Source: a virus
Length of the DNA stretch: 44,263 bases
Reading direction: 5' to 3' (one strand)
IMG/VR virus record: IMGVR_UViG_3300023119_000050
Location: 1-44,263 of that record
The notes beneath the pieces were generated by a model. That model was not told the DNA's origin. It worked only from the letters and a program-made list of their open reading frames with translations, and did no database searches. Below are positions 463 through 38,333 of the stretch, one piece after another. Position 1 is the first letter of the stretch, and each line of letters starts with the position of its first letter. Position numbers and translations under genes: made by a program.

Positions 463-708
463 ATGGCAGAGTTTCCTACAAATCCTTCTAATGGAGATAA
501 ACATACAATTGGTGTCAAAACTTGGGAATATAATGCAACCGATGATAAATGGGTTGTAGATCAGTTTGGATTGGAAAATTGGACAGTTTCACAAGACTCA
601 TCAAATAGACTACTATTTACATATAACGGCACATTAATGATGAGAATATCAACAACTGGTGATATTGAAACCAGAGGCAATCTCACTGCATTTTCGGATA
701 TGACATAA
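463..708 (+). CDS. Small tail protein, FPNSP-type adaptor (81 aa)
   Basis: The first 30 residues (MAEFPTNPSNGDKH, then WEYNATDDKW) match the N-terminal adaptor shared by eight other genes in this window, whose form is M-A-x-x-FPNSP-x-x-G followed by YxYNSTxGxW. Here the adaptor is followed by only about 50 residues of beta-rich sequence ending GDIETRGNLTAFSDMT. That end resembles the GNI-x-x-x-G-x-LT stretches in phage fibre shafts. The start is supported by AAGGAG about 8 bases upstream. The stop overlaps the next ATG by one base (TAATG), so the two are translationally coupled. It is probably a virion component, either a minimal fibre or an adaptor acting with a neighbour. Its function is inferred only from the shared module. 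Confidence 0.7.
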   Translation: MAEFPTNPSNGDKHTIGVKTWEYNATDDKWVVDQFGLENWTVSQDSSNRLLFTYNGTLMMRISTTGDIETRGNLTAFSDMT

Positions 709-1517
709 TGCCAATACAATCTTCTGGAGCTATATCAATACGAGATATCCAATTAGTTCATAATTCAGCTTCACCTACTTGGCAGAGGGTTTCATTCGAA
801 GATTATTATAGAACAGTTGGATATGTTCAAGATTTGCCAGCGAATTCTGAGGTCCCAGAAATCCAAGGAGATCCCATAAGTTTTGATGATTTTTATGGAA
901 CGGAATCTCCAATTCCAGTTGAGTATGAATTAATTGGTGGTGGTGGAGGCGGTGGATCAGGAATGAATAATGGCCAAACTACAGTCGGCGTTACGGACGG
1001 AGAAACGGGTGGCGATAGCAGTATTGTAATTGAACATACAGATGATAATGATGTTGTAACTACAATTTTATCAGTAACATCAAGTGGTGCCGAAGGAGGC
1101 ATCGCGAGCTCGGTTGATCGGGGATCTTCTGACAGAACTGGTGACGCCTCTTATTATGGCTCTGGTGGTGCTGGCGGAGGATTAAAGTCCAATGGAGGCG
1201 GTGCGCCGGGCACAAGCTATGGCGCGGGGGGCGGTGGAGGCGGCGGCCGCGTCCAGACGAACTCATACGGAGGAATATACAATCGAGACCCAGCAGGAGA
1301 GGGCGGCGATGCAGCTATTCGGGAAGTGAGTTCTGAAAATTATGCCATAGAAATTCCAAGCGGTTCAATAATGACAATAGTAGTTGGAGCTCCTGGCCTT
1401 GGTGGGGTCGACGGTGGCACAAATGGGGGAAATGGCGCTGGGGGATATGTTAAAATTACAATTAACAGCAACGAATATATATACTCGGCCGAAGGGGAAT
1501 ATACGGTGACATTATGA
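708..1517 (+). CDS. Glycine-rich tail protein with QSSGAIS N-terminal module
   Basis: 269 residues. The N-terminus (MPIQSSGAISIRDIQ, then ISFDDFYG near residue 60) is a module I know from many phage tail proteins, where short SGxIS and SFxDFYG elements precede a receptor-facing domain. From about residue 77 the protein becomes strongly glycine-rich, with runs of 5-8 Gly separated by Ser, Thr, Asn and Ala, and it closes with a short beta segment (GYVKITINSNEYIYS). Such domains can fold as polyglycine-II sandwiches, as in the Salmonella phage S16 adhesin gp38, so a tip adhesin is plausible. The glycine tracts are locally GC-rich in otherwise AT-rich DNA. The stop overlaps the next start (ATGA). 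Confidence 0.75.
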   Translation: MPIQSSGAISIRDIQLVHNSASPTWQRVSFEDYYRTVGYVQDLPANSEVPEIQGDPISFDDFYGTESPIPVEYELIGGGGGGGSGMNNGQTTVGVTDGETGGDSSIVIEHTDDNDVVTTILSVTSSGAEGGIASSVDRGSSDRTGDASYYGSGGAGGGLKSNGGGAPGTSYGAGGGGGGGRVQTNSYGGIYNRDPAGEGGDAAIREVSSENYAIEIPSGSIMTIVVGAPGLGGVDGGTNGGNGAGGYVKITINSNEYIYSAEGEYTVTL

Positions 1518-2143: not shown

Positions 2144-5100
2144 ATGGCAGATACCAATCTTTCAACATCGATTAGTGGAATTCGTACAAGATTATTAAAT
2201 GATATTCCTACAGCAACTGTAGATGAACTTTTGGCACTTGCAAGGGCGGCAAAATCAGTTGGTTTGACTGAAGATACTGACATTGAAGCTGCAATTGATT
2301 CGAGAGCACAAACTCTATCTTCTGGTGCAACTACGGATGAAGTCATTAAACTGTCACAGGCCCTAAAACAAGTTAGAAATACTTCTCAATCTGCTCTTTC
2401 ACCTTCCGTAACCTCTGATGATATCCTAGAAGGAATTTCCAACAAATATATGTCAGATGCAAATCTGCAATCATTGGGTTCTGCAATCATCCCTGCAACT
2501 AACGAAACTCTTGATTTGGGTTCTGCAACGAACAAATTTAGAGATTTATATCTGAGTTCAAACACATTGTATCTTGGAGAAACAACATTTAGTTCAGATG
2601 ATATTCTGAACTTTGATCTTTCTGTAACACCAGAAACACTCGAAATTCAAGTAGATGATCCAACAGCAGGCCACGGAACGGCATGGCAGTGGACTTGGAC
2701 ACAATCCGCTTTGCCTTTTGCCAGACTTGCAATTACAAATTCACCACAAACCGTTGTTCCACTTTATTTGGAGGGAACATATCAAATCAATAACTTTGCA
2801 CATACTGTTCATGGATCAATGACGCAAAGGCACGATTTCAAATTGAAATGGATTGAGGGCGCTGGAGATGATAACCTTGTTCCTTGGGTAACTACATCAA
2901 TTGTAAATGATAGTCACCCAGACATCAACGGCGGGACTGCACAAGATGTTCAAAGACTTGCTGTGAGTGTTCCTTCTTCTATCACACTACCTACACTCGT
3001 TGCTCCGTCTGTTTCTTATGATGTCACTTCTACCACAGGAGCTTATGTGTTTAGTGGTACTGCTAGTGGAAACAATCCAGAGATTGGGCCGTTTTATCGT
3101 GGTGGTACATATACTGTCAATATCAATGCAGCTGGCCATCCATTCTACTTTACAACCGACAACGGCACCAATTTTTCAGCAGGAACATATTTTGGTGAAT
3201 GGACTTCTGGTGTTACTGGTTCTAGAAATGAAACTGGAACAATCACATTTGTTGTGCCGTCAAACGCACCAGATATTCTATACTATCAGTGTGGAAATCA
3301 TTCAAATATGCGTGGTATTATTCGCGTTAAGGATTTGGCAGTTGAAACAAACGCGAATGGCAACTATTTAATATATGGCCAGCACAACCAAGAAGGACAT
3401 GTACAGACAATTGAACTTCGTCCTCTACCAACACTTACATCACAAATGTGTCTAGTGTATGATTCATCGACAAACAAGTTTGTACCACAAGACTTGGCAA
3501 CATATGTAGAAAATACTCCAAGTTTTGAGAATAAGATTAAAGAAGTTGCTGGTACTGCAACTCTGATTGCACCAGATGGAACATCTTTGGTTGCATCTGT
3601 CAACATCTATAGTGATGCAACGTATCTTCCAGCCGTCGGAAACACAGTTGGTGACATTGCATTTGTTGAAGATACACAAAAACTCTATATCTATAAAACT
3701 ACAGGATGGATTGAAACCGTTGCAAACGCAGACTTAACAGGTCTTGCAACAGAAACATATGTACAAAACTATGTTGCAAACAATGTCTCTGGTGGAAATG
3801 TTGTAGAATATACTTCAACAAATACAGCTGCTGTAAATGATGTTGTAATGTTGAATACTGATGGAACTGTGACTGTAGTTGAACCTACAAATTATCCATT
3901 TATAGCGAATAAGGGTGAAAATTACATTACCTCGGCAGGCACTGAAAATAATGCATCTGGAGAATCTGCAATTGTTGGGGGTTCTTCAACACCAGACAAA
4001 TATTTCACAATGTGGGTAGAAAGTAATGGATGGAATGGTTGTATTCAAATAAACAACAGTGGAACCTTTTCGTATGGTACTGAATACCTCTTTAGCGATT
4101 ATAATGCAGCTAACGGTACTAGAGGATTAAGTACCACTCAAGGAGAAGAACCATATATTCTTTTTAGTTCTGTCGATCCAGATAGAATTTTAGTTATAGG
4201 CAAGTCCACATCTGCAACTGGACACCAAGTTATGTCATTGCAGGGTACAGTTAGTGGAACTGCTGTTACTTGGGATGGAACTTACATTACACATCCAGAT
4301 TACAACACCGAAGGTTATTCTTCTGGCTCTCAAAGATTCCAATACGATTATGCTGGAAGTACTCCAGGCACAACAGACAAATTTATCATGGAATATAGTG
4401 ATGCTAGCGGAAACAAAAAACTCGTTAGAATCGAATGGGACGGAACCACACTAACATATGGCGATCCCGTTGATGTTACTGGAAAATCAGGATTTTCTTT
4501 TGACCACAATACTGAAGGTAAGTTTATTGCAAAAGATGGAACTACATCGATCGTCGCAGGTATTGTTGACTGGGATACTCAAACCGCAACTTTTGGTGGT
4601 AGTTTCAATCTAAATTCAATTGCTACAGCAGTAGGAATTGATCCAATCAGTGGAAATGCTGTTGCGGCATATCGAGTCAATCTCTCGTTTTATCCAAATT
4701 CTAACTCATATCTACGACAATTCTCCATTGATAGTAATCACACTCTCACTTCTGTGGGAAGTACAGTTACATGGGACACTACCGCAAATAGCTATAACGG
4801 TACTCCATACGACCTTAAATTTGCCAAAAAATCTAGTACATTCATGGTTTCATACGATGACAAAAGCAACTATACCTTAGAGTCTTTTTATGAAATATGG
4901 GATGTGAATGGGACAAGTATTACAAACACTGCCGGGGCCGTTCAAACAAGTGGATGGAGTCATTCTTCAGTTCCGTTACAATTTGATAATCCACATCAAT
5001 CGGGACAGTTTTCAATTTCTTGGAAAAATAGGAGATATGATAGTGGAAACTATAGACATGAATATAGAGTAAAACATCTTCAGTTTCCTTATGGAGAGTC

Positions 5101-8100
5101 CAACCTAGATGCATCTAAAGTTCATGGTATTGCAGCAACTGCCGGAACAACTATTGATGTAACTTTGGAGTTTGGAATTCATACAGGACTTTCTGGACTT
5201 ACTACTGGGTCAACATATTATGTAATAGACAATGGAACTTTGGCGACGGCACCAGACTCTAAAAATGCCAAACTTGGTGTTGCTATCAATGCAACATCTC
5301 TTGCATTAGATTTTACTGACGAACTTACAAGTGCAGATTTAGGTACATATGCGACAAAATCATATGTCGGTCAACAAATCACGGCGGCAGGTAGTTATAG
5401 CGATGCAAGTGTAGATTTACATCTAAACCAAAGTACAGCGACATCAAATGAAGTTTTAAGCTGGAATGGTACAGATTATGAATGGGTAGCACAACCAACA
5501 GATAATAATCAGTTGGCTAATGGTGCCGGATATATCACCGCTGCCGATATTCCAAACACCAATATCGTAGAATATACATCTACATCTTCTGCATCTGTAA
5601 ATGATGTTGTAATGTTAAATACTGATGGAACTGTGACTCCAGTTGAAGTTGCAACTTCTCCAGAGCAACTTACAAATCAAGGTTATAATGGGTCATATCA
5701 ACAACTTCTTCCAAATAATGAAGGCTACACTATTAGTAATACTAATGGTTTGGTCGCAGCTCATGTTGGATATTGGTTATTTCCAACACAAACTGATAAC
5801 AAGTACATCTCTGTAGCCTTTGATGAGGCGCCTGGCAGTATTTTTGAAATGAAAATTGTTTCTGCTGAATATAATAGTTCAACTGAGACTTGGACTTATG
5901 GAACCGAATATCAAGATCTTGCCTCATTGGGGAACTCATTGGGACTTGCTACATCAGATAATCCGTATGTGATTGGAAGTCCAGACAATCCAGATAAATT
6001 TTTAATTTTAGGGCCGAAGAAGAATGGAGGATCATCAGATTTAATTATTCATGCCGTAGGCACAATGGGTGGCGTTGGAATCACTTGGAGTGATACAGGA
6101 ACTAATAGTTCTAACAGCGGACCTACCTATAATTCTCGACTCGATCATATTAATTGGTACTATGACCATGCCGGAAGTACTGCCGGTTCTTACAAAATCA
6201 TCGGCGCATACAGAGACAATTCTAGTAATTGTAGAATATTTAGAGTTACGTGGGATGGAAATGCTACAATCCAATATAGCGATGATTTTGCTATACCACA
6301 TCCTATCGATAGTAGATCATTGGACTTCTCAAAACTCACAGAGGGTAGATTTGCAGGAGTTGATGCCTCTGGAAATCTCAGAATTGGTGATATAGATTGG
6401 GGTACAGGAAATATTACTGTCGGAACAGCATATGGATTGACTTCGTTCAACACAAATTTTGGTACTGACGCACCAGCGCATGTGGCATGGAGAGATTCTA
6501 GTGAACATTTTGTTGTTGCTTGGAGTGTTGGTGGAGGAAGTAACAGTCTAAAACTTAGAGCATTTTCGACAACAGGAAATTCAGCAGTGGCGGAAGGCTC
6601 AGAATACTCACTAGGCTATAATCAAGGTGGAACTTATGGCCATCTTTCTGGAAATATGGCATTCTACAAGAACAGTAATATGTTTGCACTAACTAACGCA
6701 GGGTATTATTATCTAAACAATACTAGTAACAGTAAGGATGGTTCGTTCATAACCCATTTCTCAGTAAATTCATCTTTAAATATAGTTATTGGTACAAGTA
6801 GAGTTACGCACGGCAACAACTCTTATGCAAAGAACACTGGATTTGGATATCCAGGCAAAATACAAATGGATCCTTTCAGGAGTGCTAAAGGATCAATATC
6901 GGCGCCAGGCAACACAAATGCAACCAGTTTGGTTGTTAAATTGTTTGCCCAACCAACTCAAGGTGTATATACAGAATCCAATCTAGATGCATCTAAAATT
7001 CATGGTATTGCTGCGTCTGCTGGTACAACAATTGATGTCACTGTAGAGGGAGGTATTCATACTGGACTTTCTGGTTTGACAGCTGGGTCAAAATATTATG
7101 TATTATCAGATGGTAGTCTTTCGGCAACTCCAGATACAAACAATGCTAAAGTTGGACTTGCTATGTCAAGCACAACACTTGCTGTTGATCTTTTAGATGA
7201 ATTAACTGATGCAAGTCTTGCTACCTATGCAACAAAAGCATATGTAGACACTTCTGTAGCAAACCTAGTAGATTCTGCCCCAGCAACACTTGATACACTC
7301 AATGAACTGGCTGCTGCACTAGGAGATGACGCTAATTTCTCCACAACGATTACTAACTCACTGGCAAATAAACTAGAAGCATCCGATTTGAATGGATATG
7401 CAACCGAAACTTATGTTAACAATCAAATCACAGCCGCTGGTAGTTATAGCGATGCAAGTGTAGATTTACATCTAAATCAAAGTACAGCGACAACCGATCA
7501 AATGCTTGTGTGGGATGGTTCTGATTATGCTTGGAGCACTCCAGCTGAGAAAATCAATATCGAAGGTGGTTTTGCCGATATGGACGCAACAAATGACCAA
7601 GGGCAATCGCAGAATATTAATTTACTATCGTCCGAGGGAAGTTTACATATCAACGAAACAGATACATTTGATATCAATGGAAATCTAATGTATGCGGCTG
7701 GTACTGCAATACGTTTTCAAGCAGAAATGTTTGGTTCTGGTATATATTACACATTAGCAACGCCATGGGATACGAGCAGTACATGGACGCATGTTGGTAG
7801 TTCGTACATTAGACCATCAACAAGTGGTAATTATTATGGCAGTGCAAGTACAGATGCCAAACCCACAACATATAGAATTTCATACGATGGAATCAAAGCG
7901 TTTGTTCTTGATAGACAAGATACACAAAACAATAGTAGCGGCGCAATTTACACATATTCAGGTTCCGGCTTCAATAATATCATCAGGCCTCCCAACGATG
8001 GTGTTTCCGGCAACGCTTGGTATCAACCATTTAATACATACACCACAAACGAATTTCCTCTGTGGGATTTTAGGTTCTCGCAAGATGGAACTAAAATCTA

Positions 8101-11100
8101 TCTTACATTTCAAAGTAATACTGGAAACTCAGATCCAAATGAAATTCAAAGATTTGATTTAACAACTGCTTGGGATTTATCAACAGCATCAGCGAGTGCA
8201 GTACAAACTCTAGCAACTCCAACCACAGGACATTCGGGGGCAAGATTTGCAATTAGCCCTGATGGTAAAACCGGCGCATTTATAAAAAATGGTGTCGATA
8301 TTGTTTACTACACAACTTTCTCAACAGCGTTTGATTTAACAACAGCCAGTTCTTGGAGTCAATGGCCCGCATCTATTCATGGTGGTAATGGCCCAGCAGA
8401 TATATTCTTCAAACCAGACGGTACAAAACTATACATTATGTCTGATAAGGGCTCCTATGGGGGGAGAATTTTTCAATATGACATACCAGTAAGTGATTTT
8501 GCAGCAGTAGCAACATCTGGTAACTATAATGACTTATCTAATACACCATCTCTTGCAACAGTTGCAACATCTGGTTCATATAATGACTTAACCAATACAC
8601 CAACAATTCCAACAAACAACAATCAATTGACTAACGGTGCTGGTTATATTACGGCATCTGATGTACCAAATCCTAGTGTTGTAGAATATACATCAACAAA
8701 TACAGCTGCTGTAAATGATGTTGTGATGCTGAATACTGATGGAACTGTGACTGTAGTTGAACCCACAAACTATCCATTTGTTCGTGTTTCTGCAAACAAC
8801 GCTCAAATGACAAGTGGTTTCGGGGGTGCGAGTTCCTATGTTGGAACGATTGCACACCACTCCACAAGAGAAAAAGCAATGTTACTTTTCCCGGGCGGCA
8901 CTGGGCATTCGGATAACAACATGCTTGTTCCATTTATTAAAAGCGGTTCTACTATTAGTGCTGGGACTGCCTTCGCAAGCGGAAACCATTTATCCATCAG
9001 AGACCCACACGCATTTTTTGGACCAGCAGGAACATACGAAGATACTTTCATTTATCTTGCTGCTTCAAGTAATGGAAACTCTATTTTAAAAGTAGGTACT
9101 ATCACAGGCACAACAGTAAATGGACTATCCAATCTTTCGGGTGGAAATGGATCTGTTAGTATAGGGCACAGCGGCAATAGATGCCTATTTTATCATGGTG
9201 GATTTAGTGGTGATGTATTAACTCTGTATGCAAAATTTCCAAATTCAAACAATAAAGCTGCTTTAAGAAAATTTACTTATGATTTTGCAACTGAAACTTT
9301 CGATACTAGTTATCCAGAAATTGAAACTTCATCTTCAGAAGTATTTGAATGGGAACATACAGCAGTTGATCCAGCAACCCCAACAAGAATTGCTGTTTAC
9401 AGACAAGAAGGGTCTGGCGCCACACGAAAAGGTATTATTAAATTTGCGACAGTAGATTGGGATATTGGTACTATAGTCCTTGGGCCGCAAACAGATTTGT
9501 TTACAAGATCTGGAACACATAGTGTAGGTGCAAGCGAAATTCAAAACCATCAGGAATTCCACCCAACAAACGGACTACTTGCTACAGTCACAACTACTCC
9601 GGCTGATGGTGGTGGAGATGCTCCTTATAGACTGAAGATGGCGCTATATAGTGCAGATGCGAATCTAAATGTAACAAATGTATCTGGTAATATTACAATA
9701 CAGGGTGGCGCCAATGTCCAAGTCGGAAAGGTTCGTGGAAATATCTGTTGGACAAAGGGCAGCAATACTGGAAGTTCTCCAAATGCACCCACATTGATTA
9801 TTCCTTGGTGGAATACAAATGATACCTATCCAGTAACTAGATATTATCATTTTGACAATTCTGGAAACTTGGTCAGTTCCAATGACAGTCAGATCAATGG
9901 GCCTGATGACTTTCCTCAAAACATTAACAAATGGATTTATTCAAGTCCCTTCAATGATGGAGATACAGCAGCATATACATTAGCTAGCAACTATCCAGAA
10001 GTAGTTATGACACAAGGTGCATATGGTGAATCTAACTTTGATGCAACTAAATTACATGGGGTTGCAGCATCAGCAGGAACAACTATTGATGTAACATTAG
10101 AGTATGGAATTCATACAGGACTTTCTGGACTTACTACGGGAACAAAATATTTTGTAACAGATGGCGGTGGAATTTCAACTAGCGGTGTTGCAAAACTTGG
10201 TACTGCTATCAATGCAACATCTCTTGCTCTAGATTTTGCTGATGAACTTACAAGTGCAGATTTGGGTACATATGCAACAAAAGCATACGTTGCATCACAA
10301 ATTCCATCTCTTACTGGATATGCAACTGAAACTTATGTAGATACTTCTGTAGCAAACCTTGTGGATTCTGCTCCAGCAACACTTGATACACTCAATGAAC
10401 TGGCTGCTGCACTAGGAGATGATCCTAACTTTGCAACAACTATCACCAATCAAATTGCTTCAAAAGCAAATGCGTATAGTACTGTGACAGTGACTGCATC
10501 TGGTGGATATTTCTACATTGATGGAATTCAACAAGCAACTCTTTCATTTGAGCCTGGCAGAACTTATCGTTTTGATCAATCAGATGCCTCAAATGGATCA
10601 CATCCACTAAGATTCTCAACAACCTCTGATGGCACTCATGCCAGCGGTGTTGAATATACGGTAGGAGTTACTACAAACGGAACTGCTGGTTCTGCCGGTG
10701 CATATACTGAAATTGCAATCACACACGCAACACCAGATTTATATTATTATTGTACAAATCATAGTGGAATGGGCGCCGGTTCTGTTGTTGGAAACTTCTC
10801 AGGTTCATATTCAGATCTTACTGGAACCCCAACTCCATATTCAGATAGTATGGTAGATACACATCTCAATCAATCTTCAGCGTCTACGGGACAAGTATTG
10901 TCTTGGAATGGTTCTGATTATTCTTGGGCAGATGTTGCTGGTGGTGCAACCACATCTGATACTGCACCAACTTCACCAAGTGCTGGAGAGTTCTGGTTCA
11001 AATCAGATTCAGCTGATTTGTATTTGTATTACACTGATGCTGATAGTTCTCAATGGATACAAGTTGGTGGTGCTGCTGCTAGTACTACAACTGGTTCTTC

Positions 11101-11617: not shown

Positions 11618-11642
11618 TATTTAGCAACCATTCATATGTTAT

Positions 11643-11650: not shown

Positions 11651-11674
11651 GTAGAAAGAAAATAGGATAGATAA

Positions 11675-11938: not shown

Positions 11939-11950
11939 AGGAGAAAATCT

Positions 11951-27780: not shown

Positions 27781-27795
27781 TATTTCTTGGTCTAA

Positions 27796-28014
27796 TTATT
27801 CATATATTTTGATTTTTTTAGGATCAGTTAGAACTGGTTTGCAATATGCTGTTGCACGATGTTCTTCTGGAACACTACGATAATATCTATAGTTTCCGTA
27901 TCTTTTTACAATCTGCGATGCAAAATAATTACAACGGTTTATATCCCAAAAATACATGTCTTGGCTAATAGTTTTTGATCCAAGTATAACAACTAATAAA
28001 AATACATGTGTCAT
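27796..28014 (-). CDS. Small protein with N-terminal hydrophobic segment (72 aa)
   Basis: Begins exactly at the base after the TAA of the 160-residue gene (TAA then ATG), which indicates translational coupling. The first 12 residues (MTHVFLLVVILG) are hydrophobic, followed by SKTISQDMYFWDINRCNYFA and a polar tail with AYCKPV. Two cysteines (in RCNYF and AYCKP) could form a disulphide if the protein is exported. From memory, similar short proteins lie beside fibre genes in marine T4-like phages, with no known function. It converges with the fibre gene ending at 27780. A membrane or periplasmic location is an inference from the N-terminus. Confidence 0.65.
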   Translation of the reverse strand: MTHVFLLVVILGSKTISQDMYFWDINRCNYFASQIVKRYGNYRYYRSVPEEHRATAYCKPVLTDPKKIKIYE

Positions 28015-28497: not shown

Positions 28498-28578
28498 ATT
28501 TTTCTCCTAATTATTTTTTTATAATAAAAAATTATATTAAAACATGAGAAAAATATTCACCTCGATATCAATCGCTTT

Positions 28579-29286: not shown

Positions 29287-29295
29287 GTCAATCTC

Positions 29296-30567
29296 CTATT
29301 CTAATCTAATGTGGTCTTCAAGTCTCTCTTCTGTCCATCTCTCAATCGGATCGTTGAAGTTAGGCTTTTTTTTTATTTCTTCCGTTCTAGGTTTTAACAT
29401 ATCCATTCCAAGTGGCGGAATAACACTTTCTTGTTCAAAATCCTTTTCGGATAAATGTGTAAGATTTGTTCCCTTTTTAATTTCTCTATAATATACTATT
29501 GATGATGTGCTAGCAATAACCAAAAGAATTGCAAGTGGGTCAAAAACAAAAATTAAACATAAAATCACAAATCTGACAGCATCCTCAAGTATATCTTCAT
29601 CTACATTATCATAAAGTACTTCTGCGACATATTTTACTGGTCCCACTTCGGCTTCTATTTTTCTTACTTCCTTTTCGAATTCAAATTTATCATTCCTTAA
29701 TACACCCAAATCATTCTCTGTGTCAATAATTTTTTGCTTTAAATTTTCAATTCTTTCACGATCTTTTTCATCCAATTCATCCAGTTTTATTTTACTACGA
29801 AGTCTATCAATTAACTCATTACTTTGAGTTCTTTCTGCTGCTTGCAAATCTCTCAAATCATTAATACGAATTCTTGCAGATGAAATTATTGTATCTACAC
29901 GATCCTCTTCTTTCTCTCTAAAGTCATTTACTTTTGATGCAGTATTTGGTCCATATCTTCCGTCTGGAGTTGTACCAACAAGCGCCTGCAAAGAAACAAT
30001 ATCATTCTCTTCAATATACTTTTCAATCAGTTCTAGTTTTTTACTTGCGGATGAGATTATTTCATTTTGTTCATCAACTAATAATTGATAGTTTCGAATT
30101 GCAGATTCGACTCTGCTCTCTTCTTTTGATATTTCAGAATTGATTTCAGCATTCTTATTCATATCAGAATTTTCTATCTTTTCAATTTGAAGTTCATACT
30201 CATTAATAGACTCTTCTAATCTTGCAATATTCTTTTCTACAATCTCAATTTGAGCAACATTTTCTCTATTTCCAGCAGTTTGTTCAATATGTGCCTTTGA
30301 TAGAAATCCAAATATACCTAAACTGGTTATAAACATAAGTACAATAACTGCAAGAGTCAAGTATGATTTTAGAAAAAAGTTAACTCTTTTCCAATTATGC
30401 GACAACCAAGCAGCCGTTAAAACCTTGGCAACTTCTAAAACAGAAGCCATAACAATTACTGGCATTACTGCCGCTGCAAAGATTGTAATCAATCCAGCAA
30501 TGGAGTAATATGCAGCGACTACAGATAATGCAATCGCGACCAATAATAAAGTTACAGATAGTATCAT
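29296..30567 (-). CDS. Membrane coiled-coil protein with peptidoglycan-binding-like motif (423 aa)
   Basis: Hydrophobic segments lie at about 1-20, 22-45 and 65-92 and again near 335-362 (RFVILCLIFVFDPLAILLVI). Between them is a long charged helical region (about 100-330) with heptad-like patterns. Inside it, near 195-215, is SLQALVGTTPDGRYGPNTAS, which resembles the core of PG_binding_1 domains (LQ-x-x-L-G, DG-x-YGP-x-T). Just before the last membrane part is RKIEAEVGPVKYVAEVLY. I know similar membrane/coiled-coil proteins from marine T4-like phages, where they are of unknown function. A role in the envelope, such as lysis timing, superinfection control or virion assembly at the membrane, is speculative. 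TGGAGAAC before the ATG is a good ribosome site. Confidence 0.75.
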   Translation of the reverse strand: MILSVTLLLVAIALSVVAAYYSIAGLITIFAAAVMPVIVMASVLEVAKVLTAAWLSHNWKRVNFFLKSYLTLAVIVLMFITSLGIFGFLSKAHIEQTAGNRENVAQIEIVEKNIARLEESINEYELQIEKIENSDMNKNAEINSEISKEESRVESAIRNYQLLVDEQNEIISSASKKLELIEKYIEENDIVSLQALVGTTPDGRYGPNTASKVNDFREKEEDRVDTIISSARIRINDLRDLQAAERTQSNELIDRLRSKIKLDELDEKDRERIENLKQKIIDTENDLGVLRNDKFEFEKEVRKIEAEVGPVKYVAEVLYDNVDEDILEDAVRFVILCLIFVFDPLAILLVIASTSSIVYYREIKKGTNLTHLSEKDFEQESVIPPLGMDMLKPRTEEIKKKPNFNDPIERWTEERLEDHIRLE

Positions 30568-30598
30568 TTAGTTCTCCACTAAAAATTATAGTATGTTT

Positions 30599-30612
30599 TA
30601 TTTATATAAATA
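30599..30612. promoter_or_regulatory. Palindromic bidirectional late promoter (TATAAATA on both strands)
   Basis: TATTTATATAAATA is a perfect 14-base palindrome in the only gap between the divergent genes at 30567 (leftward) and 30640 (rightward). It contains TATAAATA on the plus strand at 30605-30612 and on the minus strand at 30599-30606, with the two boxes overlapping by two bases. Each lies about 30 bases before its gene. As T4-type late promoters need only this box, one site could fire in either direction. Confidence 0.7.
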
Positions 30613-30639
30613 GAACGAATGCATTATAAAAGGTAAGTC

Positions 30640-32391
30640 ATGGCCATATCATTTCCAGCAAGTCCTGTGAATGGACAAACTCATACAGAAAATGGACAAA
30701 TCTTTGTTTTTGACTCCACAAGAGGTTATTGGCTAGTCAAAAAACAAGAGCAGATTGTTGCCTCTACTTCTCGTTCCACATTTGTTGCAACGGCAGGACA
30801 AACAGTTCATAATGTAAACTACGATCCGGCCGCAGCAGTTATTGTGTCAGTAAATGGTGTTATGTTAAACCCACAAGATGTGACAGCTACAAGCGGAACC
30901 TCTATCACTTTTGATACTGCATTGTCACTATCAGATGAAGTTGATATTGTCTTTCATCAACCGACAGCATCAAATCTAACAAGACATAGTGTCTCTGATA
31001 CAGCACCAAGCGGCGCATCTAGCGGAGATTTGTGGTTCAATTCTGCAAACTTAAAAACATATGTATACTATGATGATGGTTCAAGCGCACAATGGGTTGC
31101 AACAAATCCTCTTGGAGTGGATGGTGCAGATGGGGCTGCGGGAGCAGCTGGTTCTTCAGTCACTGCATATGCAAACTTTGCTGCATTTGCAAATGGAACT
31201 ACAGAAGGTGACTTCGCATTTGCACAAGATACCAAAGCATTATATGTATGGGATGGAACCGAATGGGATAGAATATCTTCTGGAAATGATGAAAGTCCTA
31301 TAATTATTACTGAACCACCAACAACACACACTCTTAATAGTAATGGAACCACAAGTACAGTTACAATGGTTGCGGAAGACCCAGAAGGATTTGATATATC
31401 ATATGGTATTGTTTATGGAACAACAAACAATACTTTGCCAAGCTTACTGTCGAGTGCCGCATCTGTAGATTCAAATGGAGTATATACTTTTACTCCATCT
31501 ACAAATATTGCTGATGCTGGAAGCGTAAAGGTCAGATTAAGTGCCAGTGATGGCGCAAAAACCACAACCCGATTTTGCACTCTTTCATTGGCATTTATTA
31601 GTACCGTTGATTATCTAGTAGTCGGTGGTGGTGGTGGTGGAGGTATGCGTCACGGCGGCGGTGGCGGTGCTGGCGGCTATATCTATTCTACAAATCAAAC
31701 ATTAAATATTGGTACTACATACAATATTGTTGTTGGAACTGGTGGGGCGGCCGGGAATGGTCAATCAGCGCCAGGTTCAAACGGCCTCGATAGTTCTATT
31801 TCCGGCACAGCATTCAATACAATAACAGCTATTGGTGGTGGTGGGGGAGGGACAACCGGCGCCGCTCTGGATGGTGGATCTGGCGGCGGGGGTGGACATA
31901 ATGGAGTAACAGCGGGAACAGGCACAGTTGGACAGGGTAACGATGGCGGCGTAGGCCATACATCCGCTCCATACCATGCTGGTGGTGGTGGTGGCGCTGG
32001 CGGGGCTGGTGCAAATGCTGGCAGTATCGGAGGTGCTGGAGGCGCAGGTCTTCAAAATAGTATAACTGGAACCGCACTTTACTATGCTGGGGGTGGCGGC
32101 GGTGGCACATACAACACGGCCGGCAACGCAGCTGGTGGATCTGGTGTTGGAGGAAACGGTGGTGCCGGAACGGGTGCAGCGGGTAGCCCCACGCCAAATA
32201 CGGGTTCGGGGGGTGGTGGCTCTGGTGGCGGCGCGGTGCCAAATCACGGAACGCCAACAGCGGGTGCAGATGGTATTGTAATCATTCGCTCAATTGACAC
32301 CGCCACCTCAACTACAGGCTCTCCAACAATTACTACGGACGGATCATATAATATATATCAATTTACTCAATCAGGATCTATTACATTTTAA
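30640..32391 (+). CDS. Tail fibre, FPNSP-like adaptor with glycine-rich tip (583 aa)
   Basis: Adaptor MAISFPASPVNGQTH with FVFDSTRGYW (1-32), a beta domain with STFVATAGQTVHNV and PAAAVIVSVNGVMLNPQDV (about 43-108), a DTAPSGASSGDLWF ... YYDDGSSAQW module (about 122-150), a short collagen-like stretch (GVDGADGAAGAAG), the GDFAFAQDTKALYVWDG module and a cadherin-like domain with AEDPEGFDI (about 215-320). The C-terminal half is a polyglycine domain ending DGIVIIRSIDT and YNIYQFTQSGSITF. I know that closing pattern from glycine-rich phage and bacterial proteins. It is a likely receptor-binding tip of polyglycine-II type. AAAAGGTAAGTC precedes the ATG, and the palindromic late promoter lies 28 bases upstream. 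Confidence 0.85.
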   Translation: MAISFPASPVNGQTHTENGQIFVFDSTRGYWLVKKQEQIVASTSRSTFVATAGQTVHNVNYDPAAAVIVSVNGVMLNPQDVTATSGTSITFDTALSLSDEVDIVFHQPTASNLTRHSVSDTAPSGASSGDLWFNSANLKTYVYYDDGSSAQWVATNPLGVDGADGAAGAAGSSVTAYANFAAFANGTTEGDFAFAQDTKALYVWDGTEWDRISSGNDESPIIITEPPTTHTLNSNGTTSTVTMVAEDPEGFDISYGIVYGTTNNTLPSLLSSAASVDSNGVYTFTPSTNIADAGSVKVRLSASDGAKTTTRFCTLSLAFISTVDYLVVGGGGGGGMRHGGGGGAGGYIYSTNQTLNIGTTYNIVVGTGGAAGNGQSAPGSNGLDSSISGTAFNTITAIGGGGGGTTGAALDGGSGGGGGHNGVTAGTGTVGQGNDGGVGHTSAPYHAGGGGGAGGAGANAGSIGGAGGAGLQNSITGTALYYAGGGGGGTYNTAGNAAGGSGVGGNGGAGTGAAGSPTPNTGSGGGGSGGGAVPNHGTPTAGADGIVIIRSIDTATSTTGSPTITTDGSYNIYQFTQSGSITF

Positions 32392-32404: not shown

Positions 32405-33190
32405 ATGGCAATCAATTTTCCAAGCAATCCAAATAACGGAGACACTATACTAGTAGGAAACACAACCTACACATTCGACTCTACATCTGGAGCGTGGGAT
32501 GCTAGTGGTTCTCTATATACCGTATCTGAAACTGCGCCGACAAATCCAAAAGAAGGTGATATGTGGTTTGATCCAAGTGTTCTGGAAACATATGTATATT
32601 ATAATGATGGAACAAGTTCTCAATGGGTAATCTCAAATAATTCACAGGGCCCAGCAGGTCCAGCGGGAACAGATGGAGCAGATGGAACAGCAGGCGCGGA
32701 TGGAGCAGATGGGGCAAGCGGTATCATACAGTCTCAATTTACATCAAAAACTGATACATTTGTTGGAACTGCAAACGGAACAGAAATGGCAGTAACTGGT
32801 ATGTCTGTTACAATAACACCAAGTTCTGCATCAAATAAAATTTATCTCACTGCACAAATCTCATATGGAACACAAGGAACAACATATAAAGCGTGGTTTA
32901 AAAGAAGTATTGATGGTGGCGCATATCAAGATATATTCATAGGTGATGCGGCAGGGTCTCGGCAAAGGACATCTATTCCTTTAGCTCTTGCTTCTGATGC
33001 AAATCAAGCAAATTCATTTATTTTACAGTTTATCGATGAACCAGCAACTACATCTGAGGTTATATATCAATTATATGTAAATAACGATAATAATTTCGCA
33101 TTTCATCTTAATAGATCAAACAACGATCAGGATAATGCTACTGGTGGAAGATATATCAGTACAATTATTGCATTGGAATTGGGAGCGTAA
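32405..33190 (+). CDS. Short tail fibre with collagen-like repeat (261 aa)
   Basis: Adaptor MAINFPSNPNNGDTI with YTFDSTSGAW (1-35), one ETAPTNPKEGDMWF ... YYNDGTSSQW module (about 40-78), then a Gly-x-Y collagen-like stretch of about ten triplets (GPAGPAGTDGADGTAGADGA, about 82-110). Collagen-like stretches in phage fibres form trimeric shafts. The C-terminal 150 residues form a compact beta-rich head with SVTITPSSASNKIYL, AWFKRSIDGG and YISTIIALELGA. That pattern is common in phage fibre heads, where strands of the form S-x-x-SKI-x-L precede a Trp-rich hairpin. The gene begins 13 bases after the previous stop with AAGGAAC as ribosome site. Confidence 0.85.
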   Translation: MAINFPSNPNNGDTILVGNTTYTFDSTSGAWDASGSLYTVSETAPTNPKEGDMWFDPSVLETYVYYNDGTSSQWVISNNSQGPAGPAGTDGADGTAGADGADGASGIIQSQFTSKTDTFVGTANGTEMAVTGMSVTITPSSASNKIYLTAQISYGTQGTTYKAWFKRSIDGGAYQDIFIGDAAGSRQRTSIPLALASDANQANSFILQFIDEPATTSEVIYQLYVNNDNNFAFHLNRSNNDQDNATGGRYISTIIALELGA

Positions 33191-33191
33191 C

Positions 33192-35732
33192 ATGGCAGCA
33201 GTAAATTTTCCAAATAGTCCAGTAGACGGTGATACGCATGTAGCGAATGGTGTTACATATACATACAATGCAACAAAAACAGTATGGAGGGCCGCGGCGG
33301 CTGGCAGTTCATCAGTTTCGACTGTTGCAGATATGGCTGCACTGATTGCAAAAACTGGAATGACTGATGGTGACCAAGTATTCGTTCAAGCAAACAATAA
33401 TCTTTATATCTATTCTGGTACTGGTTGGTATAAAGTGGCAACTGTTCAAAACGATTCTCCAAGTGCAATCACTGGAGTAGATGGAACTTATTCGCTTGCT
33501 ATAGATGGAACACCTACTGTAATCACAGGGGTTTCTACAGACCCTGAAGGATTCCCTTTGACATGGAGTTATTCAACATCTGGACTTGGTAGTATTGCTA
33601 CGATAAGTCAAACGGATAATGTATTTACTATTACACCTAGCACCGATGAAGCTAATTTCGGAACATTTACTCTTACAATTAATGCAACTGATGGTGTTAG
33701 TGGAGCAGTGAATGCAAATACATCAATCACTCTGGAATTTTTTATTGCAAACAGTAATTATACAACTCTTTTAGCAACAGCAGTAGATACATCAGACAAC
33801 AACAATATAACCGATAGTTCAGTTAACAACCATACAATCACAGCAAACGGCGATGCTCATGCAGGTACGTTTAGTCCATATCGGCATGGTGGATATAGCA
33901 CTTACTTCGATGGATCAGATTATTTACAGCTATCTGCCACAGCAACTAACCTTCTCCCCGAAACATCAAACACAACAATCGAAGCGTGGGTAAATACGAC
34001 AGTAACTGGACACGTTGCAATATTTAGTAATTTTGATCCATCTTCTCCCTACAACGGAATGGAAGTTGGATTATACAACGGCTATCAAGTTTTTTATTCA
34101 AACTCAGCCGGTTGGATTAATAATCCACCCAATACAGGAGTTAGTACAATAAATGATGGTAATTGGCATCATCTTGCTTGGGTAATTACGAACAGTGGAA
34201 CAACAGTTACAGCTTATGTTGATGGTGTTCAGAATTACACATCCTCAATAACTGCATCTACCACAGGAGGTAGTAATATCCGTATTGGGGCTTCTTCAAA
34301 TACTACCGTAAATAGACATTTCACTGGTTATATTGCTGATTTTAGATTTGTTAAAGGTGCCGCTGTATATTCTGCTGCGTTCACTCCACCAACCGCACAC
34401 TTAACTGCAATTACAAATACACAACTTCTTGCTTGCCACCTTCCATATATAGCAGATGGTTCTTCTAGCGCTCTCTCAATCACAGTAAACGGCAATACTT
34501 CAACAAAACCATTCGGCCCTTACGACAACTTAGAATACTCAGCAAGCGATCACGGTGGGTCTGTCTCCATGCCCAATGACAATGATTATCTTTCTGTTCC
34601 ACATTCCAGCACACTAAAACCATCAGGCACAGATCCATTCTGTGTTTCATTTTGGTATTATCCAACAACATCTCCAGGCACTACTAGACAACTTGTCGGA
34701 GATGCTAATTATGTTTCATATCCGACAAACTGTCCTGGCTGGGACATATTATATCAAAGTGGTAGTCAATTAGATGTAAGATGGGGATATCCAAATTATG
34801 CAGATATGGCTTCTGGAAAAACAAACAGCACTGTTCAGGTTAATGCTTGGAATCACATTGCGTTCTGTAGAAGCGGAGGCTCTTTATCTTACTATTTAAA
34901 CGGAAAAAGATGTAATACAACAACTTCTAATATTAATATATCAGCGTCTGGTTTAGCTAATTTTTATGTAGGTTATGCTGGAGAATCAACAGGCACCGCA
35001 ATGAATTCAGCAATGGGAACTATTGCAGATTTTAAGTATGAGGTCGGCACGAGTCAGTTTGATGCTACAGCTTCTACTATTACTGTACCTACAGCACCAC
35101 AGAGCACTACAAATTCTGTATTACATGTTAAAGGCACAGACGCATCTGTTATAGATAAAGCTCAAACAGGCAATATGAAAGTTTTTGGCACTGCAACAGG
35201 TTCATCAGCTGAAGCTAAGTTTGCTAATACAAAATCAATGTATTTCCCCGGCTCAAATCCTAATCATATAAGACACTACAGCCAAATTTATCTTCCAGGC
35301 GAATTGACAATAGAATGCTGGGTTAATACAAGTACGTTCAATTCTGGATATGTTTGGTGTTTAGAAAATTATCAACTTGAAATGAGAATTAATTCAAACG
35401 GAACTGGAGTAGATATATATGATAGTGGATACATAAACTTCTCTAGAGCAGCAGGTGCTATGAGCACAGGAACTTGGTATCATATAGCGGTGTGTAGAGA
35501 TTCTAGTAATGTTTTTAGAGCTTGGATTGATGGTGTACGAAGCACTCAATCTGGTACTAAAACAACTACTTATGATAAAGACCATATAATAATTGGAGGT
35601 GAATACTCTAGTGCTACAGGTATTAATTGGCCTTATCATGGTTATGTTCAAGATCTAAGAATAAGTAATTATGCAAGATACAGTGCAGAAGATGAAACTA
35701 CAAACATACCAACAGCACCGTTTAAAGGATAA
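33192..35732 (+). CDS. Tail fibre/adhesin with three LamG-like domains (846 aa)
   Basis: The start is the ATG whose product begins MAAVNFPNSPVDGDTH, aligning with the other adaptors; an upstream in-frame ATG at 33135 would overlap the previous gene by 56 bases and is unlikely. Next are the ADMAALIAKTGMTDGDQVFV module, the YIYSGTGWYKVA strand and a cadherin-like domain with STDPEGFPLTWSY. Then follow three concanavalin/LamG-like units, each with an opening YFDGSDYLQL-type strand, a TIEAWVN or CVSFWYY strand, a WHHLAWV / WNHIAFC / WYHIAVC strand and a YVDG / YLNGK / WIDG hairpin, ending in FTGYIADFRFVKG-type sequence. These folds bind carbohydrates or proteins. It is followed four bases later by a nuclease gene. 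Confidence 0.9.
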   Translation: MAAVNFPNSPVDGDTHVANGVTYTYNATKTVWRAAAAGSSSVSTVADMAALIAKTGMTDGDQVFVQANNNLYIYSGTGWYKVATVQNDSPSAITGVDGTYSLAIDGTPTVITGVSTDPEGFPLTWSYSTSGLGSIATISQTDNVFTITPSTDEANFGTFTLTINATDGVSGAVNANTSITLEFFIANSNYTTLLATAVDTSDNNNITDSSVNNHTITANGDAHAGTFSPYRHGGYSTYFDGSDYLQLSATATNLLPETSNTTIEAWVNTTVTGHVAIFSNFDPSSPYNGMEVGLYNGYQVFYSNSAGWINNPPNTGVSTINDGNWHHLAWVITNSGTTVTAYVDGVQNYTSSITASTTGGSNIRIGASSNTTVNRHFTGYIADFRFVKGAAVYSAAFTPPTAHLTAITNTQLLACHLPYIADGSSSALSITVNGNTSTKPFGPYDNLEYSASDHGGSVSMPNDNDYLSVPHSSTLKPSGTDPFCVSFWYYPTTSPGTTRQLVGDANYVSYPTNCPGWDILYQSGSQLDVRWGYPNYADMASGKTNSTVQVNAWNHIAFCRSGGSLSYYLNGKRCNTTTSNINISASGLANFYVGYAGESTGTAMNSAMGTIADFKYEVGTSQFDATASTITVPTAPQSTTNSVLHVKGTDASVIDKAQTGNMKVFGTATGSSAEAKFANTKSMYFPGSNPNHIRHYSQIYLPGELTIECWVNTSTFNSGYVWCLENYQLEMRINSNGTGVDIYDSGYINFSRAAGAMSTGTWYHIAVCRDSSNVFRAWIDGVRSTQSGTKTTTYDKDHIIIGGEYSSATGINWPYHGYVQDLRISNYARYSAEDETTNIPTAPFKG

Positions 35733-35736: not shown

Positions 35737-36177
35737 ATGGCATATGAGTATAATTGTAAAATTTTAAGAATTGTGGATGGTGATACAGTAGACGTGGACA
35801 TTGATTTAGGATTCGGAATTTGGATGCATAGAGAAAGAGTGCGTATTATGGGTATTGATACACCAGAATCCAGAACGAAAAACGAAGAAGAAAAAGTTTA
35901 TGGACTGGCCGCAAAAGAATATCTAAAAGAATTGCTTCCAATTGGTTCCATTCAAACTATCAAAACACAAAAAGACAAGACAGGAAAATTTGGAAGAATT
36001 CTTGGAGATTTTGAAATTGAATACAAAGACTCTAAAAATAACTTTTCACGAAGAAGTATTACTTCACTAATGTTAGAAAATCATCATGCTGTCCCATATA
36101 AAGGCCAAAGTAAAGAAGAATTAGTAGAATTGCATCTCATAAATAGAGAGAAACTAAAAGAAAAAGGTCTTATCTAA
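35737..36177 (+). CDS. Staphylococcal-type nuclease (thermonuclease fold, 146 aa)
   Basis: An SNase/TNase-family phosphodiesterase that cuts DNA or RNA with calcium. The product begins MAYEYNCKILRIVDGDTVDV; this ATG is chosen over one at 35671 because it follows AAAGGATAAT and lies four bases after the previous stop. The family residues seem intact: Asp16 (VDGDT), Arg36, Asp41-Thr42 and Glu44 in RVRIMGIDTPE, and Arg87 in KFGRILG, corresponding to Asp21, Arg35, Asp40, Thr41, Glu43 and Arg87 of the staphylococcal enzyme. No signal peptide is visible, so it should act in the host cell or travel in the virion. It is co-transcribed with fibre genes, an odd place for a nuclease. The stop overlaps the next ATG by one base (TAATG). 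Confidence 0.9.
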   Translation: MAYEYNCKILRIVDGDTVDVDIDLGFGIWMHRERVRIMGIDTPESRTKNEEEKVYGLAAKEYLKELLPIGSIQTIKTQKDKTGKFGRILGDFEIEYKDSKNNFSRRSITSLMLENHHAVPYKGQSKEELVELHLINREKLKEKGLI

Positions 36178-38333
36178 TGCCTGCATCTAGAGCAAGAAAA
36201 TTATCACAATTGATGTCCGAAGGTGGTTCACTGGACACCCAGATTGATTCTTCTGGCACCACTAGTGAAATTGGTGGCGGAGGCGTAACTGTTTATGCAA
36301 CGATAAGTAATTTGCCTTCAACTGGAAATACAACTGGCGACATGGCATTTGTATCTAGTACACGACATTTTTATATCCATGATGGAAATGGTTGGTATAG
36401 TGTTGCATTAGTAAATGAAAGTCCCACAGCTATTACTGGAGTGGATGCAACATACGATCTTGCTGTAGATGGAACACCTACAGTTGTTACTGCCGTTTCT
36501 TCAGACCCAGAAGGAATACCTTTAACTTGGAGTTATGCAGTCACATCTGGTTCTCTTGGTACTACTGCGACAGTTCAACAAGGAACTGGTGCAAATACAA
36601 ATCAATTCACAGTTACTCCAGGCACAAATGACCCAGCGGACGAAGGTACTTTCGATTTAACATTTTCTGCGACAGAAGGTGTCAATACAGTAAATAAAAC
36701 TGCAAACTTCTCGCTTGCATTTGCGAGTTTAGAATTCACTTCATATGGACAATCCAGTTATGATTTATTACAGTCAGTTTCATCTCTTTCTCTAGTTGCC
36801 GTAAAAGGAACCTCTCAAGTCACCAACGAATATACTAATAGTGGTGGTGGAATGAGAACTTCTGGATTGTTGGCATATCCTACTAGAATAGAGGAAGCAA
36901 GAGCTCGTGTAATTACTAGTGGTTACTCAAATAGAAGCGCAGGCGAACCTTCAATATTCTATCCAACGGTTGATTGGGGGGCAGTAACGGGGGCTGCACA
37001 AATCACAGAAGCTCCAACTAACAGTAATTATACACCAACTGCCTCTGGTGGTTGGTCAATTAACACACATGGCACAATAGGTATAGGTAAAGTCACAGAT
37101 AGTGGTGGTACTAAACCATATGGCTATCATGCAATGATGATAGGAGACAGCGGATCCTCGTTTTCACCCGATAGTACACCCCAACATATAATTTGGGTGA
37201 GTGGTACAGAAACTTTAGGTCATAAATCACACGCAACTGCATATGGTTCACTTGCGTCACCCGACCAAGGTACTACAAGATATATGGGGGCGCCGGATAC
37301 TTCTCAATACGTTATTGGACTTGTTGGTAAAGATCAGTCAGGAACCCGTTCGTCCAATCTAAATGTTGTGCCAGGAACCTCTTACAATAGTGGCGGTCAG
37401 CCGACAGAATTTTATATGAAAAAATTTAATGAATCATACATCAATGATGCTACGTACTACACATCGGCTGTGACTTCAGATACTTATTTTAAGTTTGTAT
37501 CAAGTAACCACCCAAAACAACAACCGAATTTGCCTTCTGGGGATAGAAATCATAATACTCATCCAACACATAGCACTAAACGTGGACAATTATTAGCACA
37601 ACATCAACTCAGTGTTGGCGGAAGTGATATATTACGTTCATACTATCTGTCATTTTATCAACATCATAGCGCTGGTACATATAGAGGACACAAAATTGAA
37701 GTTTTTGATTGGGATATTTCAGCCGGAACTGGCCACTGGGTTGTAGACAATTATGATCAACAATCTTCGACTGATACTTTCAATTCTCTAGACAGAAATT
37801 TAATAGACCAACACTTCGCCTATACGAGTGAATTCAATACAGTAAGTGGAACTAGTCAGGATTTTGCGAATTCTTGGGATTTATCAAGATCAGTACACTC
37901 CCAATGGCCTCATTCATTTATAGTAACTACAAATGAAGTGGATTCGGGTAGTGCAACATCAGAAAAATATAAACTTTTTTATAGAGATATGTCAGCAAAC
38001 ATTGATGCTGCTACTTATGGTGGGTCGAAATCAGCAGGATTTAGTGCGAACTCAGGAGATAGTGGGTTAGTAGACACAGGACTTCTTGAATGTACTACAG
38101 CTACCTGTATTTCTCACGATAGTACAAACCAAAAATTGACACTTCTTTATACCGACCACGATAGTATTAATCTTAGGAATTATAATTATTCAAACAATAC
38201 GTGGGATTCGGTAATATCTTCAATAACAAATACCGGCATTGGATATCTCGCCACAGGTATTCACGTACTGCCTGGAACAACAAGATTTATTGTAACAGGG
38301 GTTGGAAAAATTTGGTTATATGAAATGAGTTAA
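36177..38333 (+). CDS. Tail fibre/adhesin with cadherin-like domain and unknown tip (718 aa)
   Basis: The N-terminus (MPASRARKLSQLMSEGGSL) is a different adaptor from its neighbours. From about residue 37 it has the shared module YATISNLPSTGNTTGDMAFV, HFYIHDGNGWYSVAL and a cadherin-like domain with SSDPEGIPLTWSYAV and FTVTPGTND (about 80-180). The C-terminal 530 residues are rich in Ser, Thr, Gly, His and Tyr with no repeat I can name. They contain several HxxH-type pairs (HPKQQP, HNTHPTHSTK) and read as a long beta-rich receptor-binding region. The last codon overlaps the stop of the convergent HAD gene in a shared TTAA. It is probably virion-associated; the family of the tip is unknown to me. 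Confidence 0.8.
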   Translation: MPASRARKLSQLMSEGGSLDTQIDSSGTTSEIGGGGVTVYATISNLPSTGNTTGDMAFVSSTRHFYIHDGNGWYSVALVNESPTAITGVDATYDLAVDGTPTVVTAVSSDPEGIPLTWSYAVTSGSLGTTATVQQGTGANTNQFTVTPGTNDPADEGTFDLTFSATEGVNTVNKTANFSLAFASLEFTSYGQSSYDLLQSVSSLSLVAVKGTSQVTNEYTNSGGGMRTSGLLAYPTRIEEARARVITSGYSNRSAGEPSIFYPTVDWGAVTGAAQITEAPTNSNYTPTASGGWSINTHGTIGIGKVTDSGGTKPYGYHAMMIGDSGSSFSPDSTPQHIIWVSGTETLGHKSHATAYGSLASPDQGTTRYMGAPDTSQYVIGLVGKDQSGTRSSNLNVVPGTSYNSGGQPTEFYMKKFNESYINDATYYTSAVTSDTYFKFVSSNHPKQQPNLPSGDRNHNTHPTHSTKRGQLLAQHQLSVGGSDILRSYYLSFYQHHSAGTYRGHKIEVFDWDISAGTGHWVVDNYDQQSSTDTFNSLDRNLIDQHFAYTSEFNTVSGTSQDFANSWDLSRSVHSQWPHSFIVTTNEVDSGSATSEKYKLFYRDMSANIDAATYGGSKSAGFSANSGDSGLVDTGLLECTTATCISHDSTNQKLTLLYTDHDSINLRNYNYSNNTWDSVISSITNTGIGYLATGIHVLPGTTRFIVTGVGKIWLYEMS

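Follow-up and report, generated by a model that had tools for sequence, protein, structure and literature searches.

The window analysed here, a 44,263-nucleotide (nt) stretch of viral DNA (positions 1 to 44,263 of IMG/VR record IMGVR_UViG_3300023119_000050), contains an array of putative fibre genes between positions 463 and 38333. The array probably encodes late virion proteins that form a second host-recognition cluster, a multi-receptor fibre set with exchangeable tips. Most of the tip-bearing genes combine an adaptor at the N-terminus, an immunoglobulin (Ig)/cadherin-like neck, and a tip at the C-terminus, with short shaft hairpins often placed between adaptor and neck. A preliminary description of the window had listed nine genes sharing one short FPNSP-type adaptor (A1; starts at 463, 11675, 14914, 16698, 20557, 22060, 30640, 32405, and 33192) but differing in their tips, and three genes with a helical MAD-type adaptor (A2; starts at 2144, 23611, and 25528). 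All nine A1 genes and all three A2 genes were open frames from these starts.

The window was 99.96% identical, with 18 mismatches, to part of IMG/VR record G001 (203,815 bases), in which window position x corresponds to 99085 minus x on the minus strand. The fitted FPNSP motif matched 9 of the window's 635 possible open reading frame (ORF) starts but none of the 2,426 in the rest of G001 and nothing in 50 mononucleotide shuffles. Because this motif was composed after inspection of the nine genes, leave-one-out profiles, each built from the other eight adaptors, provide the stronger test. They recovered all nine members with E-values of 4.3e-9 to 8.5e-21, and the top non-member in every search lay in the initial part of the G001 181184 ORF (E-values of 3.5e-7 to 5.4e-6). 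The shared A1 adaptor was retained, but as a divergent family with five invariant columns among the nine members and not as a single adaptor. Only seven of the nine A1 genes bear tips, because the products of 463 (81 amino acids, aa) and 11675 (87 aa) stop shortly past the adaptor. Such stubs recur: the cultured Synechococcus phage ACG-2014f encodes a comparable adaptor stub of 70 aa. The three A2 genes have approximately 80 residues in common, followed by a LIPxxN..DLGS..RFKDLY stretch, and gene 36177 has a third N-terminal type (SRARKLSQLM). In AlphaFold2 monomer models, both with a predicted template modelling score under 0.4, the A2 adaptor of 23611 formed four helices with block mean predicted local distance difference test (pLDDT) values mostly of 85–93, and residues 1–30 of the 22060 A1 adaptor scored 86–92, with strands between residues 14 and 33.

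A neck of approximately 140 aa was common to eight window genes, namely five A1 genes, two A2 genes, and 36177; blastp among the window ORFs placed this one neck behind both adaptors and behind the third N-terminus. In the neck, a stretch that ends in GTGWY-type residues is combined with a Big_9/Cadherin_5-like domain, partly under the Pfam cut-off. AlphaFold2 modelled the neck domain as Ig/cadherin-like with pLDDT values of 91–98, and the best 50 of 1,648 and of 1,498 Foldseek matches for the two models were dominated by cadherins, by titin and other Ig domains, and by S-layer domains. The model of the 22060 tip was poor (pLDDT mostly below 50). Among the tip types proposed in the preliminary description, Pfam supported LamG for 33192, a glycine-rich type for 23611 and 30640, an FG-GAP-like type for 25528, and, weakly, a collagen type for 32405. 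The clearest beta-propeller, 12304, has no adaptor, and the A1 gene 16698 is similar to it by homology. The proposed beta-helix tip was not borne out: 14914 had no Pfam match past the neck region and a best PDB E-value of 0.42, and no pectate-lyase or beta-helix family was matched at an E-value of 0.1 among the array proteins scanned.

The 22060 neck matched 1 of 50,697 phage records in a tblastn search at an E-value of 1e-3, a near-DNA search of phage records with window positions 1–25000 yielded no match, and the Methylophilales phage Melnitz had no neck or adaptor match, just one short shaft stretch. In the IMG/VR contigs examined together with the window, 63 distinct neck-bearing ORFs were found, a set that keeps near-identical ORFs of related contigs. 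Their N-termini were A1 in 24, A2 in 25, the third type in 8 (assigned via a loose pattern), and other or missing in 6, the last class including ORFs cut at the ends of fetched pieces (e.g., G020 18172). Tips under 60 aa (4 of the 63 ORFs) were left out of the tip clustering. A LamG-type cluster of 12 proteins and an FG-GAP-like cluster of 13 each stood behind several N-termini; these clusters are undercounts, in which, for example, 23611 and its G018 partner are kept apart by the coverage rule.

Comparison between relatives located the boundary of variation at the end of the neck. Among the pairs with neck-covering similarity, which are non-independent, 1,303 of 1,561 lost similarity no more than 20 aa from the end of the neck, 253 stayed similar beyond it, and 5 fell short of it; for pairs including a window member, the corresponding count was 351 of 408. 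In G018 and G020, 9,261 bp at 98.96% identity adjoined a tip without DNA similarity, followed by 90% identity in the adaptor and neck, and the swapped tips matched as proteins over at most 85 aa at 22% (E-value of 0.009). In G019 and G020, which are approximately 95% identical between cassettes, two tips were unrelated (best E-values of 2.8 and 4.7) and a third belonged to the same family but was related as protein only (24%, E-value of 1.5e-13). In G007 compared with G027 and G028, two consecutive neck-bearing cassettes had highly identical adaptors and necks with no or marginal tip similarity (best E-values of 3.5e-5 to 0.16). The gain and loss of whole cassettes, which the preliminary description had proposed to look for, was also observed in the relatives compared: between the ThyX/29296 gene pair and the nuclease gene, the window holds three cassettes, G019 and G020 hold one, and G022 holds none. 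Gene content of the array is thus hypervariable among the relatives.

The window is part of the genome of a Kyanoviridae-like T4-type marine phage, as judged by sequence. With the annotated phage Melnitz (Kyanoviridae) as the reference for T4-type genes, G001 contained homologues of the neck, terminase, sheath, tube, portal, prohead, capsid, and baseplate genes, that is, the T4-type core virion set. At the usual host-recognition place, from the baseplate genes to gp13, G001 has eleven ORFs of 310–1,882 aa. This gp13-linked region (165–203.8 kb of G001) comprises 38,302 nt including two small ORFs; a host-recognition function is assigned to it on the basis of its location and of partial matches to tail fibre genes of Melnitz. 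The array forms a separate, second locus (60.7–101 kb of G001), on the opposite strand amid replication and metabolism genes and outside the baseplate-gp13/gp14 interval typical of Kyanoviridae-type clusters. In the ORF set used, 17 array-strand ORFs total 36,867 nt, a sum that takes in the nuclease and small genes and omits 11675 and 11951. The array strand and the gp13-linked region together occupy approximately 37% of the record (36.9 and 38.3 of 203.8 kb). The statement that this is more than a normal fibre set was therefore upheld, as one genome combines the eleven gp13-linked ORFs (38.3 kb) with 36.9 kb of array strand.

Signals of late expression were placed ahead of the array genes. 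The sequence WATAAATA, which we take to be the T4-type late promoter core, occurs 57 times in G001, and 24 of these copies lie 20–60 nt ahead of an ORF start, compared with 1.7% expected. They precede 22 distinct ORFs, including gp13, gp18, gp19, and gp23, and in the array they precede G001 101249, 2144, 11675, 23611, and 30640. G001 also encodes a homologue of the late sigma factor of Melnitz. AAGG, AGGA, or GGAG was found within 20 nt upstream of all 12 named genes and of 14 of the 18 genes checked. The promoter placement favours late expression of the entire array over a silent store.

Cassettes of this kind are associated with virion genes elsewhere. The relative G004 has four A1 genes inside the structural region, within the baseplate-to-gp13 interval, flanked by a homologue of the G001 197375 ORF and by gp13. 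In ACG-2014f (NC_047712), three neighbouring A1 genes are annotated as tail collar proteins. The A1 gene of phage S-SCSM1 is annotated in its record as a long tail fibre proximal subunit with the note virion protein, and 45 proteins were found by mass spectrometry in S-SCSM1 virions (PMC9602691; here and below, statements on cited papers refer to the accessible portions of their text).

How the adaptors behave between genomes bears on how the proteins could be assembled. The 30640 adaptor was 93% identical to the same-place adaptors of G018, G019, and G020 but 31–38% identical over 45 aa to the other eight A1 adaptors of the window. The 463 adaptor was only 47% identical to its syntenic partner in G022 versus 29–44% to its paralogues. 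The A1 comparison is short, and shared ancestry accounts for part of the pattern. All 30 A2 adaptors of four related records (G006, part of G007, G027, and G028) were closest to one in another genome (94–100%), whereas the median identity within one genome was 27% and the maximum 92%. These results suggest that the adaptors are a family bound to positions and do not look like one interchangeable plug; the idea of one shared adaptor was discarded on this ground. They also bear on an alternative in which the A1 proteins compete for one docking site and each burst consists of random adhesin mixtures (bet-hedging). The nine paralogous adaptors retain an FP..P and W core, and several A1 genes lie in one transcription unit by promoter evidence, as this alternative would have it, but the adaptors have not been homogenised, and we regard such a one-site mixture as unlikely. 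That every adaptor keeps its identity at its position points to ordered docking and not to random mixing on a single socket.

The array might also be a silent or programmed archive, in which expression is limited to one or two cassettes while the others serve as donors for within-genome switching. Genes 20557 and 22060 share 79% DNA identity over approximately 620 nt of adaptor and neck, so that within-genome recombination is possible, and the two adaptor stubs would fit an archive. G001, a record that may be incomplete, however gave no matches to RVT_1 (PF00078), Resolvase (PF00239), or Phage_integrase (PF00589), families that were detected in 3, 10, and 14 of 14 control genomes, respectively, and no inverted repeats of at least 40 nt were reported in the window; a diversity-generating retroelement or an inversion system was rejected because both the enzyme-family matches and the long inverted repeats were missing. 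A silent store is not supported because the tip-bearing ORFs are complete, AAGG, AGGA, or GGAG lies upstream, late-promoter motifs stand ahead of their units, and no switching enzyme was matched, and the archive is the least probable of the explanations weighed here. The fibre store suggested in the preliminary description thus survives as exchange, but between phages and of tips, while its other suggestion, a virion with mixed adhesins, is plausible. It is very improbable, if slightly less so than the archive, that the late products act off the particle as free adhesins released at lysis or displayed on the infected cell. A curli-type operon lies inside the locus in G018, G019, and G020, and 28015 and 29296 resemble membrane proteins by eye, both of which would suit such a role; against it, the array N-termini have no signal peptide by eye, and G004 has the same cassette kind in its structural region beside gp13.

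Several observations weigh against the interpretation of the array as an exchangeable virion fibre set. The adaptors had no sequence match to any solved docking domain in profile searches against the PDB, in which no T4 gp10-like or CBA120 D1/XD docking chain was matched by the A1 and A2 profiles. The best 50 of 1,648 and of 1,498 Foldseek matches of the two models were mostly Ig-, cadherin-, or S-layer-type domains, and none had a phage docking fold (gp10-like, CBA120 D1/XD). The conservation of adaptors by position may be plain common descent. Not all tips are replaced: 23611 was 81% identical to G018 32354 over 444 aa, into the tip, and the tips of 25528 and its G019 counterpart were related (E-value of 2.9e-16). 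The relatives are metagenomic contigs, in which an assembly join could imitate a swap. Genes 2144, 16698, and 32405 (adaptor and long C-terminal part) had no neck match, and 708 and 12304 have neither adaptor nor neck. Across the window, WATAAATA occurred 9 times versus 10.3 expected, which is no excess; what stands out is only where the copies lie. The adaptor of S-SCSM1 belongs to the A1 family as a remote member (E-value of 1.5e-7), and the virion link of its gene rests on the record's own note. The phage is known from sequence records alone, from which we infer the virion presence of the array proteins.

Docking of the adaptors in the manner of T4 gp10 was considered but gained no support from the PDB profile or Foldseek matches. 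The shaft stretch of the A2 profile weakly matched the solved tail spike 6eu4 (E-value of 0.0055). In hhalign, the A1 adaptor aligned to the common DTAPxxPxxGDxWF shaft module with 32% probability over 28 columns, and it is possible that the adaptor is a mere N-terminal copy of this module.

On the interpretation of the array as a second host-recognition cluster, the genes would be expressed late, and each protein would be attached to the virion through its adaptor, at a site of its own, in a branched or multi-socket fibre assembly. Glycans or proteins of the cell surface may be the ligands of the tips. When phages co-infect a cell, homologous recombination could swap tips by using the adaptor and neck as one flank and the conserved gene that follows as the other, and such swaps would shift host range.

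Fibre islands and multi-fibre phages are already known, and the array is a variation on them. Pelagimyophages and cyanomyophages have a host recognition cluster, a large hypervariable tail-fibre island next to the neck protein gene (PMC7029224). They are likewise T4-like marine phages, and G001 has a region at that same place; the array differs as a second locus on the opposite strand with mostly adaptor(-neck)-tip genes. The same report places curli genes in a separate variable region, whereas three relatives here have them inside the array locus. In metaviromic islands of marine phages, C-terminal parts of fibres vary and N-termini stay (PMC3909814), the same variation as here, but single fibre or receptor-binding genes were analysed there, as opposed to many paralogous cassettes with a common neck and a sharp boundary. 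Schizotequatrovirus vibrio phages, large and marine, have seven tail fibres and recombination hotspots at the long tail fibre genes, and a shared-adaptor array or neck is not described in the accessible text (PMC12028318). Klebsiella phage phiKp24 has hyperbranched fibres with 14 putative fibres (PMC9700779). It and RaK2 resemble the array in having many fibre proteins with an N-terminal docking part and diverse C-terminal parts (PMC9700779, PMC10253068), but in those phages the head domains are T4 gp10-like or CBA120-like and the tips are mainly beta-helix depolymerases. Neither feature was found in the array, whose tips are of LamG, FG-GAP, propeller, glycine-rich, and collagen types. TSP1-4 of the Ackermannviridae phage CBA120 also combine conserved N-terminal docking domains with different binding parts, but comprise four spikes with other docking folds (PMC10253068). 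As in branched systems of multiple receptor-binding proteins, several array proteins, presumed to be fibres, have conserved N-terminal domains. The tail collar fibre genes of ACG-2014f (NC_047712) are alike in being three neighbouring A1 genes including the stub; they differ in being three only, with a glutaredoxin gene separating the second and third, a collagen/collar tip in one gene scanned, and no neck match in the genes tested. No account of the array or neck was found in the open-access literature searched, in the portions accessible, subscription papers lying mostly outside its scope.

The array genes lie on the plus strand as follows. The stub 463–708 was assigned by leave-one-out profile, and a 588-aa A1 gene lies at G022 24620. 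The stub shares a unit with the glycine-rich gene 708–1517 (ORF translation), which has another N-terminus and no match in Pfam or PHROGs. The motif scan found a late-promoter-like AATAAATA at 2106–2113, 38 nt ahead of 2144–11617, which encodes the A2 adaptor and a long remainder with internal repeats (3157 aa; sequence and repeat search). The repeat families have copies of approximately 75–197 nt with 61–95% identity, which suggests growth via internal duplication. A second AATAAATA (11643–11650) lies 32 nt ahead of the stub 11675–11938 (leave-one-out profile). The adaptorless beta-propeller protein is encoded at 12304–14883 (Pfam Lactonase, E-value of 2.1e-15; PDB 1l0q, E-value of 3.9e-8). 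Gene 14914–16686 encodes an A1 adaptor, three hairpin-type repeats, a neck (15523–15948), and a tip, as determined by profile, Pfam, PHROGs, and repeat search. By homology, 16698–20555 encodes an A1 adaptor and a long protein akin to the 12304 propeller, in which the neck was not found, and 20557–22029 encodes an A1 adaptor, a neck (20770–21195), and a tip akin to the same propeller. Gene 22060–23556 encodes an A1 adaptor, a neck (22273–22701; Ig/cadherin-like per model), and a tip (homology and AlphaFold2 model). All neck coordinates are from the neck search, complemented by models for 22060 and 23611.

A late-promoter-like TATAAATA at 23584–23591 lies 27 nt ahead of 23611–25518, which encodes the four-helix A2 adaptor, a neck (24196–24621), and a glycine-rich tip (Pfam and model). 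Gene 25528–27780 encodes an A2 adaptor, a neck (26110–26529), and an FG-GAP-like tip (Pfam and tip clustering). Non-array genes within the span occupy 28015–30567 on the minus strand, including ThyX, and a nuclease gene lies at 35671. A further TATAAATA (30605–30612) lies 35 nt ahead of 30640, and a minus-strand late-promoter-like copy (30599–30606) faces 29296–30567, so that late motifs of opposite strands overlap (30599–30612) between these genes. The 423-aa product of 29296–30567 resembles a membrane protein with coiled coils and gave a weak match to an Rz-like spanin (E-value of 0.0048). Gene 30640–32391 encodes an A1 adaptor, a hairpin repeat, a neck (31159–31599), and a glycine-rich tip, with other tips here in relatives (Pfam and comparison). 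Gene 32405–33190 encodes an A1 adaptor, a hairpin repeat, a collagen-like stretch, and a C-terminal domain like PHROGs tail fibre 6942 (Pfam and PHROGs). A match of this C-terminal part to the PDB chain orf22 (E-value of 9.2e-11) was set aside and carries little weight because the full-length query gave no PDB match at an E-value of 1e-3. Gene 33192–35732 encodes an A1 adaptor, a neck (33315–33743), and three LamG-type stretches (Pfam Laminin_G_3, E-value of 1.2e-43), and 36177–38333 encodes the third N-terminus, a neck (36285–36725), and a tip (neck search and comparison).

Some further features were observed around the array. A curli operon and a cyclase-like gene lie inside the locus beside ThyX in G018 (23199–29919), G019 (24195–30915), and G020 (11450–18170); at the place of this operon, the window holds only 28015–28497. 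The G018 curli genes, one small spurious-looking ORF excepted, are 44–58% identical to the Melnitz curli region at 50.1–56.9 kb. The RuvC-like gene 43284–43844 had its best match, among those listed, in Pelagibacter phage Mosig (45%), and the majority of the 408 matching records were named Salmonella, Vibrio, or Klebsiella phages. The gp18 tail sheath homologues of G001 (1,061 aa, 4914–8099) and G018 (1,050 aa, 10761–13913) are larger than that of Melnitz (approximately 663 aa, 121161–123152), which suggests a big inserted domain along the tail. The LamG-looking ORF at G001 58–558 and the open ORF at 200743–203815 may be a single gene split by the record ends.

Marine phage host range is thought to change in fibre islands, which can often be described only as a variable region. 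Here, the exchange unit is visible: it is the tip, preceded by a position-bound adaptor and a conserved neck. This arrangement recurs in many genes, and tips turn over between genomes whose adjoining DNA is 95–99% identical. More tentatively, one virion might carry most of the 13 tip-bearing array proteins (708, 12304, and 11 whose N-terminus belongs to one of the three types) together with the gp13-linked set, each adaptor serving as its own address and the neck as the standard exchange joint; this fuller picture is possible but doubtful. If true, it would be among the largest receptor-binding repertoires per particle, evolving via replacement of single tips with all sockets kept. The array would give a concrete rule by which a T4-like phage could renew receptor binding and still preserve its assembly contacts, and a natural example of plug-in host-recognition parts.

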